A stretch of 64,000 nt of DNA from assembly GCF_030142075.1 (NCBI RefSeq), contig NZ_CP126241.1:2666001-2730000 (forward strand). The letters run 5' to 3'. The notes under the pieces are model-generated. The model was not told the origin of the DNA. It did not search any database and saw only the letters and a program-made list of their open reading frames with translations. Source of the stretch: Arthrobacter sp. zg-Y20 (GTDB lineage Bacteria; Actinomycetota; Actinomycetes; Actinomycetales; Micrococcaceae). The translations under genes and the position numbers were made by a program. Positions 18,331 through 37,864 of the stretch are shown here, piece after piece. The first letter of the stretch is position 1. Each line of letters opens with the position of its first letter.

Positions 18331-19236
18331 CTAGGCTTCGAACGTACCGGTGAAGTCCTTGAGCCACTCGCGGAGTCCGGGGCCCAGGTCCTCACGCTCG
18401 GAGGCCAGGGTCACCACGGCCTTGAGGTAGCTCATCTTGTCGCCGGTGTCGTAGCGGCGTCCACGGAAGACCACACCGTATACACCCGCGCCTTCTCCCT
18501 CGGCGGAAGCAAGGGTCTGCAGTGCGTCGGTCAACTGGATCTCCCCGCCGCGGCCCGGGCCGGTCTGCTCCAGGACCTCGAAGACGGAGGGGTGCAGCAC
18601 ATACCGGCCGATCACGGCCAGGTTGGACGGGGCGTCAGCGGCGTCTGGCTTTTCGACAAGCTCGTTGACGCGGACGTAGTCCTCGCCTTCCACTACGGTG
18701 ATGTCGGCGCAGCCGTAGGCACTGATCTGCTCGGGGTCGACCTCGATCAGGGCAATCACCGACCCGCCGGTCTTGGCCTGGACGGCCACCATCTGTTCGA
18801 GCAGCTCGTCCCGGGCGTCAATGAGGTCATCGCCCAGCAGGACCGCGAAGGGCTCGTCGCCCACGTGCAGCTTTGCGCGCAGCACGGCGTGGCCCAGTCC
18901 CTTCGGGTCGCCCTGGCGGAGGTAGTGGATCTCGCCGAGCTCCGACGCTGCACGCACCATTGCGAGCTTGTCGAAGTCGCCCTTGTCTTCCAGGGTCTTC
19001 TCGATGAACGGCACGCGGTCGAAATGGTCCTCGAGCGAACGCTTGTTCCGTCCGGTGATCATCAGGATGTCCGACATGCCCGCGTTAACGGCTTCTTCAA
19101 CCACGTACTGGATGGCGGGCTTGTCCACCACCGGGAGCATTTCCTTCGGCATTGCCTTGGTGGCGGGCAGGAAGCGGGTACCGAGACCAGCGGCGGGGAT
19201 TACGGCTTTGGTTATGGTGGGGCGCGACGTCGTCAT
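18331..19236 (-). CDS. galU: UTP-glucose-1-phosphate uridylyltransferase
   Basis: Makes UDP-glucose for cell-envelope glycans, trehalose and glycogen-type metabolism. 301 aa with nucleotidyltransferase motif AVIPAAGLGTRFLPATKAMPKEMLP, VDKPAIQYVVEEA, LGDD and the VEKP sugar-binding motif, at the usual family length. The ATG at 19236 is used; the upstream TTG at 19254 lacks support. Divergent from the cyclo-ligase gene across 67 bp. Confidence 0.97.
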   Translation of the reverse strand: MTTSRPTITKAVIPAAGLGTRFLPATKAMPKEMLPVVDKPAIQYVVEEAVNAGMSDILMITGRNKRSLEDHFDRVPFIEKTLEDKGDFDKLAMVRAASELGEIHYLRQGDPKGLGHAVLRAKLHVGDEPFAVLLGDDLIDARDELLEQMVAVQAKTGGSVIALIEVDPEQISAYGCADITVVEGEDYVRVNELVEKPDAADAPSNLAVIGRYVLHPSVFEVLEQTGPGRGGEIQLTDALQTLASAEGEGAGVYGVVFRGRRYDTGDKMSYLKAVVTLASEREDLGPGLREWLKDFTGTFEA

Positions 19237-19303
19237 AGTCGTAAGACTACCCAAGTGTGCTCAGGTTGCACCAAATAAGCGTGCTATTGGGACAATAGGC
19301 CTT

Positions 19304-19906
19304 ATGCGCCAACTGACAAAGGACCAGGCACGGCAGGAATTCCTGCAGAACCGCCGTGGGCTGACGGATGCCGAGCGGACCGCAGCGGCCCGTGGCCTCG
19401 CCGTCCGGGGCTTGGACGGCGTCTGCGAGCTGCTGCCCGCCGGCGCTACGGTCGCCTGCTACCTCTCCGTTGGCACCGAACCGGGAACCGGCCTGCTGCT
19501 GCCGTCCCTGCACGGAGCCGGCTTCCACGTGGTGGCGCCGGTCTGCGAACCCGGCCGCCAGTTGTCGTGGTGCTCTTGGACACCCGGTATCGACATGGTG
19601 CCCGGGATCTATCCGAACCTGATGGAACCGGCCGGACCGCGCTACGCGGCCGCCGATCTGCCCGGCCTCGACCTGGTGTTTGTTCCCGCACTTGCCGCCG
19701 ATGACGCCGGGGGCCGGATGGGAAAGGGCGGCGGCTATTACGACCGGTTCCTGGCGCAGCTGCGGGCCGACGGCAACGCAGCACCCGCGGTGGCCGTGGT
19801 CTTCGAGCAGGAATTCGTCCCTGCCGGCACCTTTGAAACAACCCCCCTCGATGCGGCCGTGGACGCTGTGCTGACCCCTGCTGCTTGGCGGAAAGTACCG
19901 GTTTAA
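19304..19906 (+). CDS. 5-formyltetrahydrofolate cyclo-ligase
   Basis: 200 aa, usual length. Converts 5-formyl-THF to 5,10-methenyl-THF using ATP. The family's ATP/folate motif GGRMGKGGGYYDRFL is intact, with an N-terminal RQEFLQNRRGLT region. The ATG at 19304 has no Shine-Dalgarno. A GACAAT element ends 7 bp before it, so a leaderless transcript is plausible. Same divergent pairing with galU as in M. tuberculosis (Rv0992c/Rv0993). Confidence 0.93.
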   Translation: MRQLTKDQARQEFLQNRRGLTDAERTAAARGLAVRGLDGVCELLPAGATVACYLSVGTEPGTGLLLPSLHGAGFHVVAPVCEPGRQLSWCSWTPGIDMVPGIYPNLMEPAGPRYAAADLPGLDLVFVPALAADDAGGRMGKGGGYYDRFLAQLRADGNAAPAVAVVFEQEFVPAGTFETTPLDAAVDAVLTPAAWRKVPV

Positions 19907-19912
19907 CGCATG

Positions 19913-19944
19913 TATACTTAGCACTCAAGGCCATAGAGTGCCAA
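19913..19944 (+). promoter_or_regulatory. CIRCE operator (HrcA) overlapping the ruc promoter
   Basis: TTAGCACTC at 19918-19926, nine bases, then GAGTGCCAA at 19936-19944. This is the CIRCE consensus with a single mismatch and the canonical 9-bp spacer. A TATACT -10 element (19913-19918) runs into the left arm, and the right arm touches the Shine-Dalgarno AAGGAGGA of the zinc-ribbon gene. The arrangement predicts tight HrcA repression released by heat or unfolded-protein stress. Confidence 0.88.
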
Positions 19945-19957
19945 GGAGGATTACAGA

Positions 19958-20245
19958 GTGCCCACGTACGCCTACGCCTGCAAGGACTGCTCCCATTCGT
20001 TCGATATCCAGCAGTCCTTCAGCGAAGATTCCCTGACGGTCTGCCCCGAATGCGGCGGCCGTCTTCGCAAGAAATTCAACAGCGTTGGAGTTGTTTTTAA
20101 GGGATCCGGTTTCTACCGCACCGATTCCCGCGACGCAGCTTCCTCCGTCCCGGCTGCACCTGCCAAGGCCGACGCCGGCCCGGCGCCGGCCGCCAAGGCC
20201 GAAAGCGGCACTTCTTCCGCCGCGGCAACCTCCTCCCCCGCCTAG
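19958..20245 (+). CDS. FmdB-type zinc ribbon protein, Ruc-like redox-regulated chaperone
   Basis: 95 aa. The N-terminal zinc ribbon has CKDC (about residues 8-11) and CPEC (about 29-32), followed by the conserved LRKKFNSVGVVFKGSGFYRTDSR and then a disordered Ala/Pro/Ser tail. The best-known homologue is Rv0991c/Ruc of M. tuberculosis, a holdase activated by oxidation of these cysteines and controlled by HrcA. The location behind the cyclo-ligase gene and the CIRCE operator match that locus. GTG start with AAGGAGGA 7 nt upstream. Confidence 0.9.
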   Translation: MPTYAYACKDCSHSFDIQQSFSEDSLTVCPECGGRLRKKFNSVGVVFKGSGFYRTDSRDAASSVPAAPAKADAGPAPAAKAESGTSSAAATSSPA

Positions 20246-20327
20246 GCCGACCCCGCCTCCACAGCAGGCCTTCCCTCCGCGGGCGGGCATCGCCGCCACC
20301 CCGCCGCTCCCCCGGCGCCTTTGGAGG

Positions 20328-20352
20328 GCCGCACCACGCCTAGCGTGGCGGC
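20328..20352 (+). promoter_or_regulatory. Hairpin between the Shine-Dalgarno and ATG of the SAF gene
   Basis: The segments GCCGC/CCACGC and GCGTGG/CGGC can pair around a 3-nt loop, ending exactly at the ATG. Folding would bring GGAGG (20323-20327) close to the start codon; unfolded, the spacing is about 25 nt. This is suggestive of structure-dependent translation but could be incidental GC-rich pairing. Confidence 0.3.
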
Positions 20353-21138
20353 ATGCCTTTTCGACGCCGGATTGTTCCCGGCCCCCCAGGTTCCGCCCCG
20401 TCTCTTTTCACCGGCGACCGCGCCGTGGGCGTGCATCCACACAGCCGACGACGACGCCTGCGCCGCTTTGTCGCGCGCCGCCGCAGGCTGTTGGCTGCCC
20501 TGGCCTGCTGCGCTGCTGCCGGCGTCGCGGTCCAGGCACTGATTCCGCCGGACGCGGAGCGGACCGTGGTGGTCCGTGCCGCCCGGGACCTGCCGGCCGG
20601 CGCGGTGCTGGAGGCCGGATCACTGGCAACTGCCAGCATCCCCTCCGAAGCTGTTCCGCCCGGCGCCCATGACACTCTCGAACCGCTGGTGGGGCGGCGC
20701 CTGGCCACGCCGCTGTTACGGGGCAGTCCCGTTACTGAAATCTCGCTCGCCGGTTCGGGACTGCTGGCAGGGGCACCACCCGGCACGGTTGCCGTCCCCC
20801 TTCGCCCGGCTGATCCTTCGGTGCTCGGCCTGCTGGGGCCGGGTCAACTGGTCACCGTGGTGGCGGCGTCCGGCGAGGCGGACTACAGCGCGGGCGCGGC
20901 AGCGCAGGACAGTACTGCGCAGGACGGCGCTGTGGTTCTTGCTACGGCGGTTCCGGTGCTGTGGGTCTCCGGCGCCTCCCCCGGGGCAGGTTTCCCCGGT
21001 GCCGGCTCCGCAGCCGGCGACTGGACGGCAGGCGCCGGCGAAGGCCTGGTGGTGGTTGCCGCCGACCGTGAGGACGCGGCCCGGCTTACTGCGGCGTCCG
21101 GAACCGGCGGGATATACCTGGTCCTCACGGGAGGGTAG
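20353..21138 (+). CDS. SAF-domain protein with N-terminal membrane anchor
   Basis: 261 aa. After about 45 Arg-rich residues comes one membrane segment (LLAALACCAAAGVAVQALI), then a SAF/CpaB-like domain (VVVRAARDLPAGAVLEAGSLATASIP, PLLRGSPVTEISL) and a Gly/Ala-rich C-terminal region. SAF domains occur in Flp pilus assembly protein CpaB and FlgA; here no pilus gene is nearby, and the pairing with ruc is as in mycobacteria, as far as I recall. The ATG follows an in-frame stop at 20341. Its Shine-Dalgarno (GGAGG, 20323-20327) is separated from it by a hairpin. Confidence 0.8.
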   Translation: MPFRRRIVPGPPGSAPSLFTGDRAVGVHPHSRRRRLRRFVARRRRLLAALACCAAAGVAVQALIPPDAERTVVVRAARDLPAGAVLEAGSLATASIPSEAVPPGAHDTLEPLVGRRLATPLLRGSPVTEISLAGSGLLAGAPPGTVAVPLRPADPSVLGLLGPGQLVTVVAASGEADYSAGAAAQDSTAQDGAVVLATAVPVLWVSGASPGAGFPGAGSAAGDWTAGAGEGLVVVAADREDAARLTAASGTGGIYLVLTGG

Positions 21139-37791: not shown

Positions 37792-37818
37792 TTAGCACCC
37801 TCACGTTCGGAGTGCTAA
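37792..37818 (-). promoter_or_regulatory. CIRCE operator 1 of groESL
   Basis: TTAGCACCC, nine bases, then GAGTGCTAA: one mismatch from the CIRCE consensus. It covers the predicted transcription start of groES (about 37817), so HrcA binding here should block initiation directly. Confidence 0.92.
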
Positions 37819-37823
37819 GTGAG

Positions 37824-37852
37824 ACTTTATGCAACGGTTAGCACTCGGTCAA
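37824..37852 (-). promoter_or_regulatory. groESL promoter
   Basis: On the minus strand TTGACC (37852-37847) and TAAAGT (37829-37824) are separated by exactly 17 bp, a good primary-sigma promoter lying between and partly inside the two CIRCE elements. Confidence 0.8.
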
Positions 37853-37864
37853 GGTGAGTGCCAG
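37838..37864 (-). promoter_or_regulatory. CIRCE operator 2 of groESL
   Basis: TTAGCACTC, nine bases, then GAGTGCCAG: a second CIRCE with two mismatches in the right arm, overlapping the -35 element. Two operators on one promoter predict tight HrcA control. Confidence 0.85.

Follow-up and report, generated by a model that had tools for sequence, protein, structure and literature searches.

The window analysed here, a stretch of 64,000 nucleotides from the genome of Arthrobacter sp. zg-Y20 (contig NZ_CP126241.1, positions 2,666,001 to 2,730,000), contains a gene for a small FmdB-type zinc-ribbon protein that is preceded by a 5-formyltetrahydrofolate (5-FTHF) cyclo-ligase gene and followed by a gene for a SAF-domain protein. 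An inverted repeat of the CIRCE type lies at the promoter of the zinc-ribbon gene, and two further CIRCE elements are present elsewhere in the window. The features are listed below with positions counted from the first nucleotide of the window.

19305..19907, + strand: 5-FTHF cyclo-ligase gene (PF01812, E = 7e-31, with the longer ORF 18968-19906)
19913..19918, + strand: -10-like hexamer TATACT of the ruc promoter, no clear -35 (position conserved in relatives)
19918..19944, + strand: CIRCE, the predicted HrcA operator, TTAGCACTC-N9-GAGTGCCAA (pattern match and conservation)
19943..19949, + strand: Shine-Dalgarno sequence AAGGAGG of ruc (from the sequence)
19958..20245, + strand: ruc orthologue, 95-aa FmdB-type zinc-ribbon protein, GTG start (profile matches and cysteines)
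20258..20263, + strand: TCCACA core, degenerate window copy (CCTCCACAG) of a DnaA-box-like element (conserved spacer motif of relatives)
20341..20346, + strand: TAGCGT, putative -10 of leaderless type for the SAF gene, 6 nt before the ATG (TANNNT conservation)
20353..21138, + strand: SAF/RcpC-CpaB-like protein, 261 aa (PF08666, E = 4e-10; PF16976, E = 1.5e-7)
37792..37818, + strand: first CIRCE upstream of groES-groEL, genes on the - strand (pattern match)
37838..37864, + strand: second CIRCE upstream of groES-groEL, genes on the - strand (pattern match)

The 95-aa product carries an N-terminal zinc ribbon of the FmdB family (PF09723, Zn_ribbon_8, E = 1.6e-15; TIGR02605, E = 1e-18, above the cut-off). 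Its cysteines at positions 8, 11, 29 and 32 recur in all 110 loci checked, and its C-terminal tail (residues 52-95), which in composition is rich in Ala, Ser and Pro, may be disordered. Cysteines 8, 11, 29 and 32 are also the residues mutated in Ruc (Rv0991c) of Mycobacterium tuberculosis (PMC7448276), which shares the zinc ribbon and the low-complexity C-terminus. M. tuberculosis Ruc is an oxidation-activated holdase that passes its clients to DnaK, and its gene is controlled by HrcA and SigH (PMC7448276); the original prediction had relied on this orthologue being HrcA-regulated and redox-activated, as is already published. The cyclo-ligase gene, whose start we took as the putative ATG at 19305 (the longer ORF was used for the profile search), ends about 50 nt upstream of ruc on the same strand, and a cyclo-ligase gene is a conserved same-strand neighbour 5' of ruc in most ruc loci. 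M. tuberculosis has the same succession of genes, with the 5-FTHF cyclo-ligase gene first, then ruc and then the SAF-position gene. The identical cysteine positions and the matching neighbours support the assignment of the window gene as an orthologue of M. tuberculosis ruc.

The promoter of ruc contains the HrcA/CIRCE inverted repeat (TTAGCACTC-N9-GAGTGCTAA) in the form TTAGCACTC-AAGGCCATA-GAGTGCCAA at 19918-19944, with a 9-bp spacer and one mismatch (T to C at 19942), at a threshold of ≤3 mismatches at which dinucleotide shuffles of the window gave an expectation of 0 matches. The element is thus confirmed as originally described, and HrcA would be expected to bind at 19918-19944. Its first base is also the last T of the hexamer TATACT; this single shared base bears out the reported overlap with the -10, and the contact is conserved in relatives. 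Since a sigma-70 consensus scan of the window returned no promoter pair, the -10 calls rest on conservation. From the position of the hexamer, transcription of ruc likely starts inside the left arm of the CIRCE, in which case HrcA should work at the DNA level, as an obstacle to polymerase. The second overlap that had been described, with the Shine-Dalgarno sequence, stands in part: two A's of AAGGAGG are shared with the operator, but the GGAGG core only adjoins it and is left uncovered. In relatives, the CIRCE lies anywhere from about 9 to 176 nt before the start codon; this overlap is therefore not conserved and appears incidental.

The same observations bear on a mainly RNA-level function of the CIRCE, either as a hairpin in the 5' UTR or by masking of the Shine-Dalgarno sequence. 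In the window the right arm does touch AAGGAGG, 8 nt before the start codon. However, the widely varying distance to the start codon in relatives argues against such a function, and an mRNA starting within the left arm, as the conserved -10 suggests, would lack the full hairpin. We rejected the RNA-level role, which we regard as very improbable, because the CIRCE has no constant spacing from the start codon. The compact leader of the window seems to be the result of a loss between the repeated GAGTGCC stretches. In five loci of the same genus (L093-L095, L099 and L100), an additional half-site, GAGAGTGCC, lies between the CIRCE and the Shine-Dalgarno sequence.

An HrcA operator overlapping the promoter is common to this ruc gene and that of M. 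tuberculosis, but the window operator abuts a sigmaA-like TATACT and lacks a SigH-type GGAAT-N18-GTT, a box present in mycobacterial, nocardial and rhodococcal loci. A SigH/SigR box was looked for under the window operator and none was found, leaving the TANNNT type as the only one present there. All congeners have the -10 at the same position, as TATACT or TATAGT, and in other Micrococcales it reads TAGAAT or TAGACT; throughout the Micrococcales, the TANNNT hexamer (TATACT, TATAGT, TAGAAT) ends on the first CIRCE base. The element that ends on this same base in Mycobacterium, Nocardia, Rhodococcus, Amycolatopsis and some others is a SigH/SigR-type GGAAT-N18-GTT. The register between the operator and the predicted -10 is thus fixed while the promoter type changes between sigmaA-like and SigH/SigR-like, and this swap under a fixed operator is one of the most interesting leads of the analysis. 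Both elements are superposed before the CIRCE in Sinomonas and several Cellulomonas (L016, L029, L031, L040, L041 and L044).

The genome, a single contig of 3.53 Mb, contains eight CIRCEs at ≤3 mismatches, compared with none for a reversed control pattern. They fall at six promoters, namely those of groEL2 (two sites), groES-groEL (two sites), hrcA, two Hsp20 genes and ruc, so that all eight are located at a chaperone gene or at hrcA. HrcA itself is intact (C-terminal domain PF01628, E = 1e-52, plus an HTH region), and its own promoter bears a CIRCE. The 9-9-9 CIRCEs at groES-groEL, groEL2 and hrcA correspond to the classical HrcA/CIRCE regulon of groE and hrcA, which here differs by the addition of ruc and two Hsp20 genes. 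The CIRCEs of the two Hsp20 small heat-shock genes (L003:1501-1527 and L007:1501-1527; genome positions 2052593 and 927426) mean that the HrcA regulon of this organism is not confined to groE, hrcA and ruc. At genome position 2895224 (L011) lies another FmdB-type zinc-ribbon gene, with about 30% identity to Ruc and without a CIRCE; about half of the congeners likewise have a second, similarly weak FmdB-type match.

The composition of this regulon is relevant to whether the window protein is a chaperone or has a different zinc-ribbon function, such as the regulatory one hinted at by the family name FmdB. No solved structure came up as a convincing relative by sequence, and FmdB-like proteins are mostly uncharacterised, which would leave room for such a role. 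We nevertheless consider it quite unlikely, because the genes co-regulated by HrcA are all chaperone genes or hrcA, the Ruc cysteine spacing is present in 110 of 110 loci, and the neighbours match those described for the M. tuberculosis gene. A literature search for HrcA tied to an FmdB zinc-ribbon heat-shock gene in Corynebacterium returned nothing.

The operator was present upstream of ruc in all 29 genomes of the genus (the window and 28 fetched congeners). At ≤4 mismatches within 300 bp, the whole-genome samples gave 22 of 40 other Micrococcaceae, 41 of 60 Actinomycetes sampled across the class, and 6 of 60 genomes from elsewhere in the phylum; this threshold was not attained by any of 3200 shuffled regions. 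A search of the 250 bp upstream in named actinobacterial loci, allowing ≤5 mismatches of 18, gave a CIRCE-like element for 71 of 80; the mean for shuffles was about 8. The proposed check, CIRCE conservation upstream of orthologues, thus came out positively for genus, family and class, and the proposed extension of HrcA regulation to the Micrococcaceae is upheld by operator conservation. Beyond the genus, the predicted operator is patchy, although common across the Actinomycetes. Since roughly half of the other Micrococcaceae and a third of the class sample are without it, HrcA control of ruc would have been lost or gained repeatedly.

No CIRCE was found at ruc in 17 of the 18 sampled genomes with no or a truncated HrcA match, the exception being a genome at 94% completeness (L128), and Fisher tests of HrcA status against the operator gave p of about 0.001, uncorrected for shared ancestry. 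Six small genomes of 1.3-1.4 Mb, all of one family (f86: G251, G265, G277, G287, G297 and G305), have a partial HrcA profile match, and their ruc upstream regions (L135, L136 and L175-L178) are all devoid of a CIRCE. As these genomes represent a single family, the absence of CIRCE together with a truncated HrcA is not phylogenetically independent.

Downstream of ruc, the SAF gene is the same-strand neighbour in 104 of 110 loci, a set that includes a few near-duplicate genomes. Its product is probably anchored by one N-terminal hydrophobic segment. Scoring 69 bits against the CpaB equivalog TIGR03177, it falls below the cut-off of 71, and the neighbours examined (ruc and the 5-FTHF cyclo-ligase gene) include no pilus genes; an identity as CpaB/RcpC of a Flp pilus is thus not indicated. 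The counterpart in M. tuberculosis is presumably Rv0990c (Hsp22.5), which we take to be a heat-shock protein of unassigned function encoded downstream of ruc. Mycobacterial SAF proteins at this position have about 214-226 aa, a size consistent with Rv0990c, and the likely identity is based on position and size. The window protein shares the position after ruc with Rv0990c, for which an association with heat shock has been reported (PMC7448276, PMC8557902), but at 261 aa it is longer, and the two are equated by position and size alone.

The original prediction had placed the SAF gene in the same HrcA regulon as ruc. A TANNNT hexamer, usually TAGCGT at 6 nt, occurs 5-8 nt before the SAF start in 95 of 104 loci versus 2.7 expected; this count allowed several first start codons and therefore includes some false positives, and 80 of 104 match at the first one. 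Shine-Dalgarno sequences precede only 4 SAF starts in these 104 loci versus 96 of 110 ruc starts, and TANNNT occurs at 5 of 110 ruc starts. Actinobacterial leaderless promoters have TANNNT about 12 nt ahead of the start codon (PMC3898074, PMC3160421). The SAF gene, with TAGCGT-N6-ATG at its predicted start and without a Shine-Dalgarno sequence, is alike, with no difference seen. A hairpin followed by a T-run was found in 10 of 102 ruc-SAF spacers, mostly in congeners, versus 1 of 510 shuffles, and strong intrinsic terminators separate the two genes in L012, L013, L105, L110, L111, L113 and L119. The genome-wide scan placed no CIRCE at the SAF gene's own start. Taken together, the SAF gene is probably its own transcription unit.

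If ruc and SAF instead formed one HrcA-controlled heat-shock operon, the leaderless promoter would provide only basal SAF expression. This alternative gains weight from the same-strand arrangement in 104 of 110 loci, from the absence of a T-tailed terminator in a consensus scan of the window spacer, and from M. tuberculosis, where rv0991c-rv0990c has been described as an HrcA operon and rv0990c as heat-shock associated (PMC8557902). It is countered by the conserved TAGCGT-N6-ATG without a Shine-Dalgarno sequence, by the terminators in the congeners L105, L110, L111, L113 and L119, and by the length of the spacer, which is 107 nt in the window and longer in many congeners. We judge a single operon to be a serious but somewhat doubtful alternative. 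Placing the SAF gene in the ruc regulon is thereby weakened: its own conserved promoter and the congener terminators speak against it, and the M. tuberculosis operon speaks for it. Because of that reported operon, we keep possible readthrough from ruc, and thereby dual control of the SAF gene, in view.

The spacer itself contains a conserved motif. The core TCCACA was found on either strand within 150 nt after the ruc stop codon in 85 of 110 loci (L012-L121; 4.4 expected), and exact TTRTCCACA in 32 of 110 (0.2 expected). Flanking controls and ruc upstream regions had TCCACA at or below chance. The motif came to light in this original set; in a subsequent test on 40 newly retrieved genomes of the class (L282-L321), the core was present in 31 of 40 (1.25 expected) and GTCCACAG in 20 of 40 (0.1 expected). 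In the original set, 23 of 40 exact copies are located 50-54 nt upstream of the SAF start. Only the TCCACA core of the 9-mer is kept in the window spacer (20246-20352). The sequence TTGTCCACA is a high-affinity DnaA box of M. tuberculosis and Streptomyces coelicolor (PMC4285127). Exact TTRTCCACA was not enriched genome-wide in Mycobacterium celatum (25 sites versus 28 for the reversed control). Tentatively, the spacer could be a conserved regulatory node of the Actinomycetes, at which DnaA or another reader of TCCACA controls the SAF gene separately from HrcA-controlled ruc; the 9-mer in question is TTRTCCACA or GTCCACAG on either strand, often 50-54 nt from the leaderless SAF start. We rather doubt that this reading is correct, and regard the conserved motif itself as one of the most interesting leads. 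In the terminators of L012, L013, L105, L110, L111, L113 and L119, the TCCACA motif lies in or beside the hairpin loop.

We assign a probability of about 0.88 to the explanation that ruc is repressed by HrcA through the CIRCE, derepressed by heat and encodes a holdase, with the SAF gene transcribed mainly from a leaderless promoter of its own. HrcA dimers bound at normal temperature to the CIRCE at 19918-19944 would occlude the last part of the -10 together with the probable transcription start, and RNA polymerase would be blocked. Under heat or protein-folding stress, HrcA would become inactive and ruc would be transcribed together with groES-groEL, groEL2, the two Hsp20 genes and hrcA. Ruc would then serve as an oxidation-activated holdase handing its clients to DnaK, an activity demonstrated for the M. 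tuberculosis protein; heat induction of ruc and holdase activity would both be expected in this species. The SAF/RcpC-like gene would be transcribed mainly from its leaderless promoter, with possible readthrough from ruc.

The CIRCE on the ruc promoter is confirmed, and the interpretation first given to it is partly supported. Since HrcA control of M. tuberculosis ruc has been published, the window gene adds a member to a known kind; it is a further example of that arrangement, ordinary in kind and well conserved. HrcA repression of the redox chaperone Ruc, as known from M. tuberculosis, would thus be a common arrangement in the Actinomycetes in which the repressor site is fixed and the sigma promoter changes, and the gene gives a non-pathogenic system from the Micrococcaceae for testing Ruc. 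The analysis also corrects a likely over-extension: the adjacent SAF gene appears to be served by a conserved promoter of its own, and a conserved motif that is so far unexplained accompanies it. Both offer a way to approach by experiment a protein family of unassigned function.
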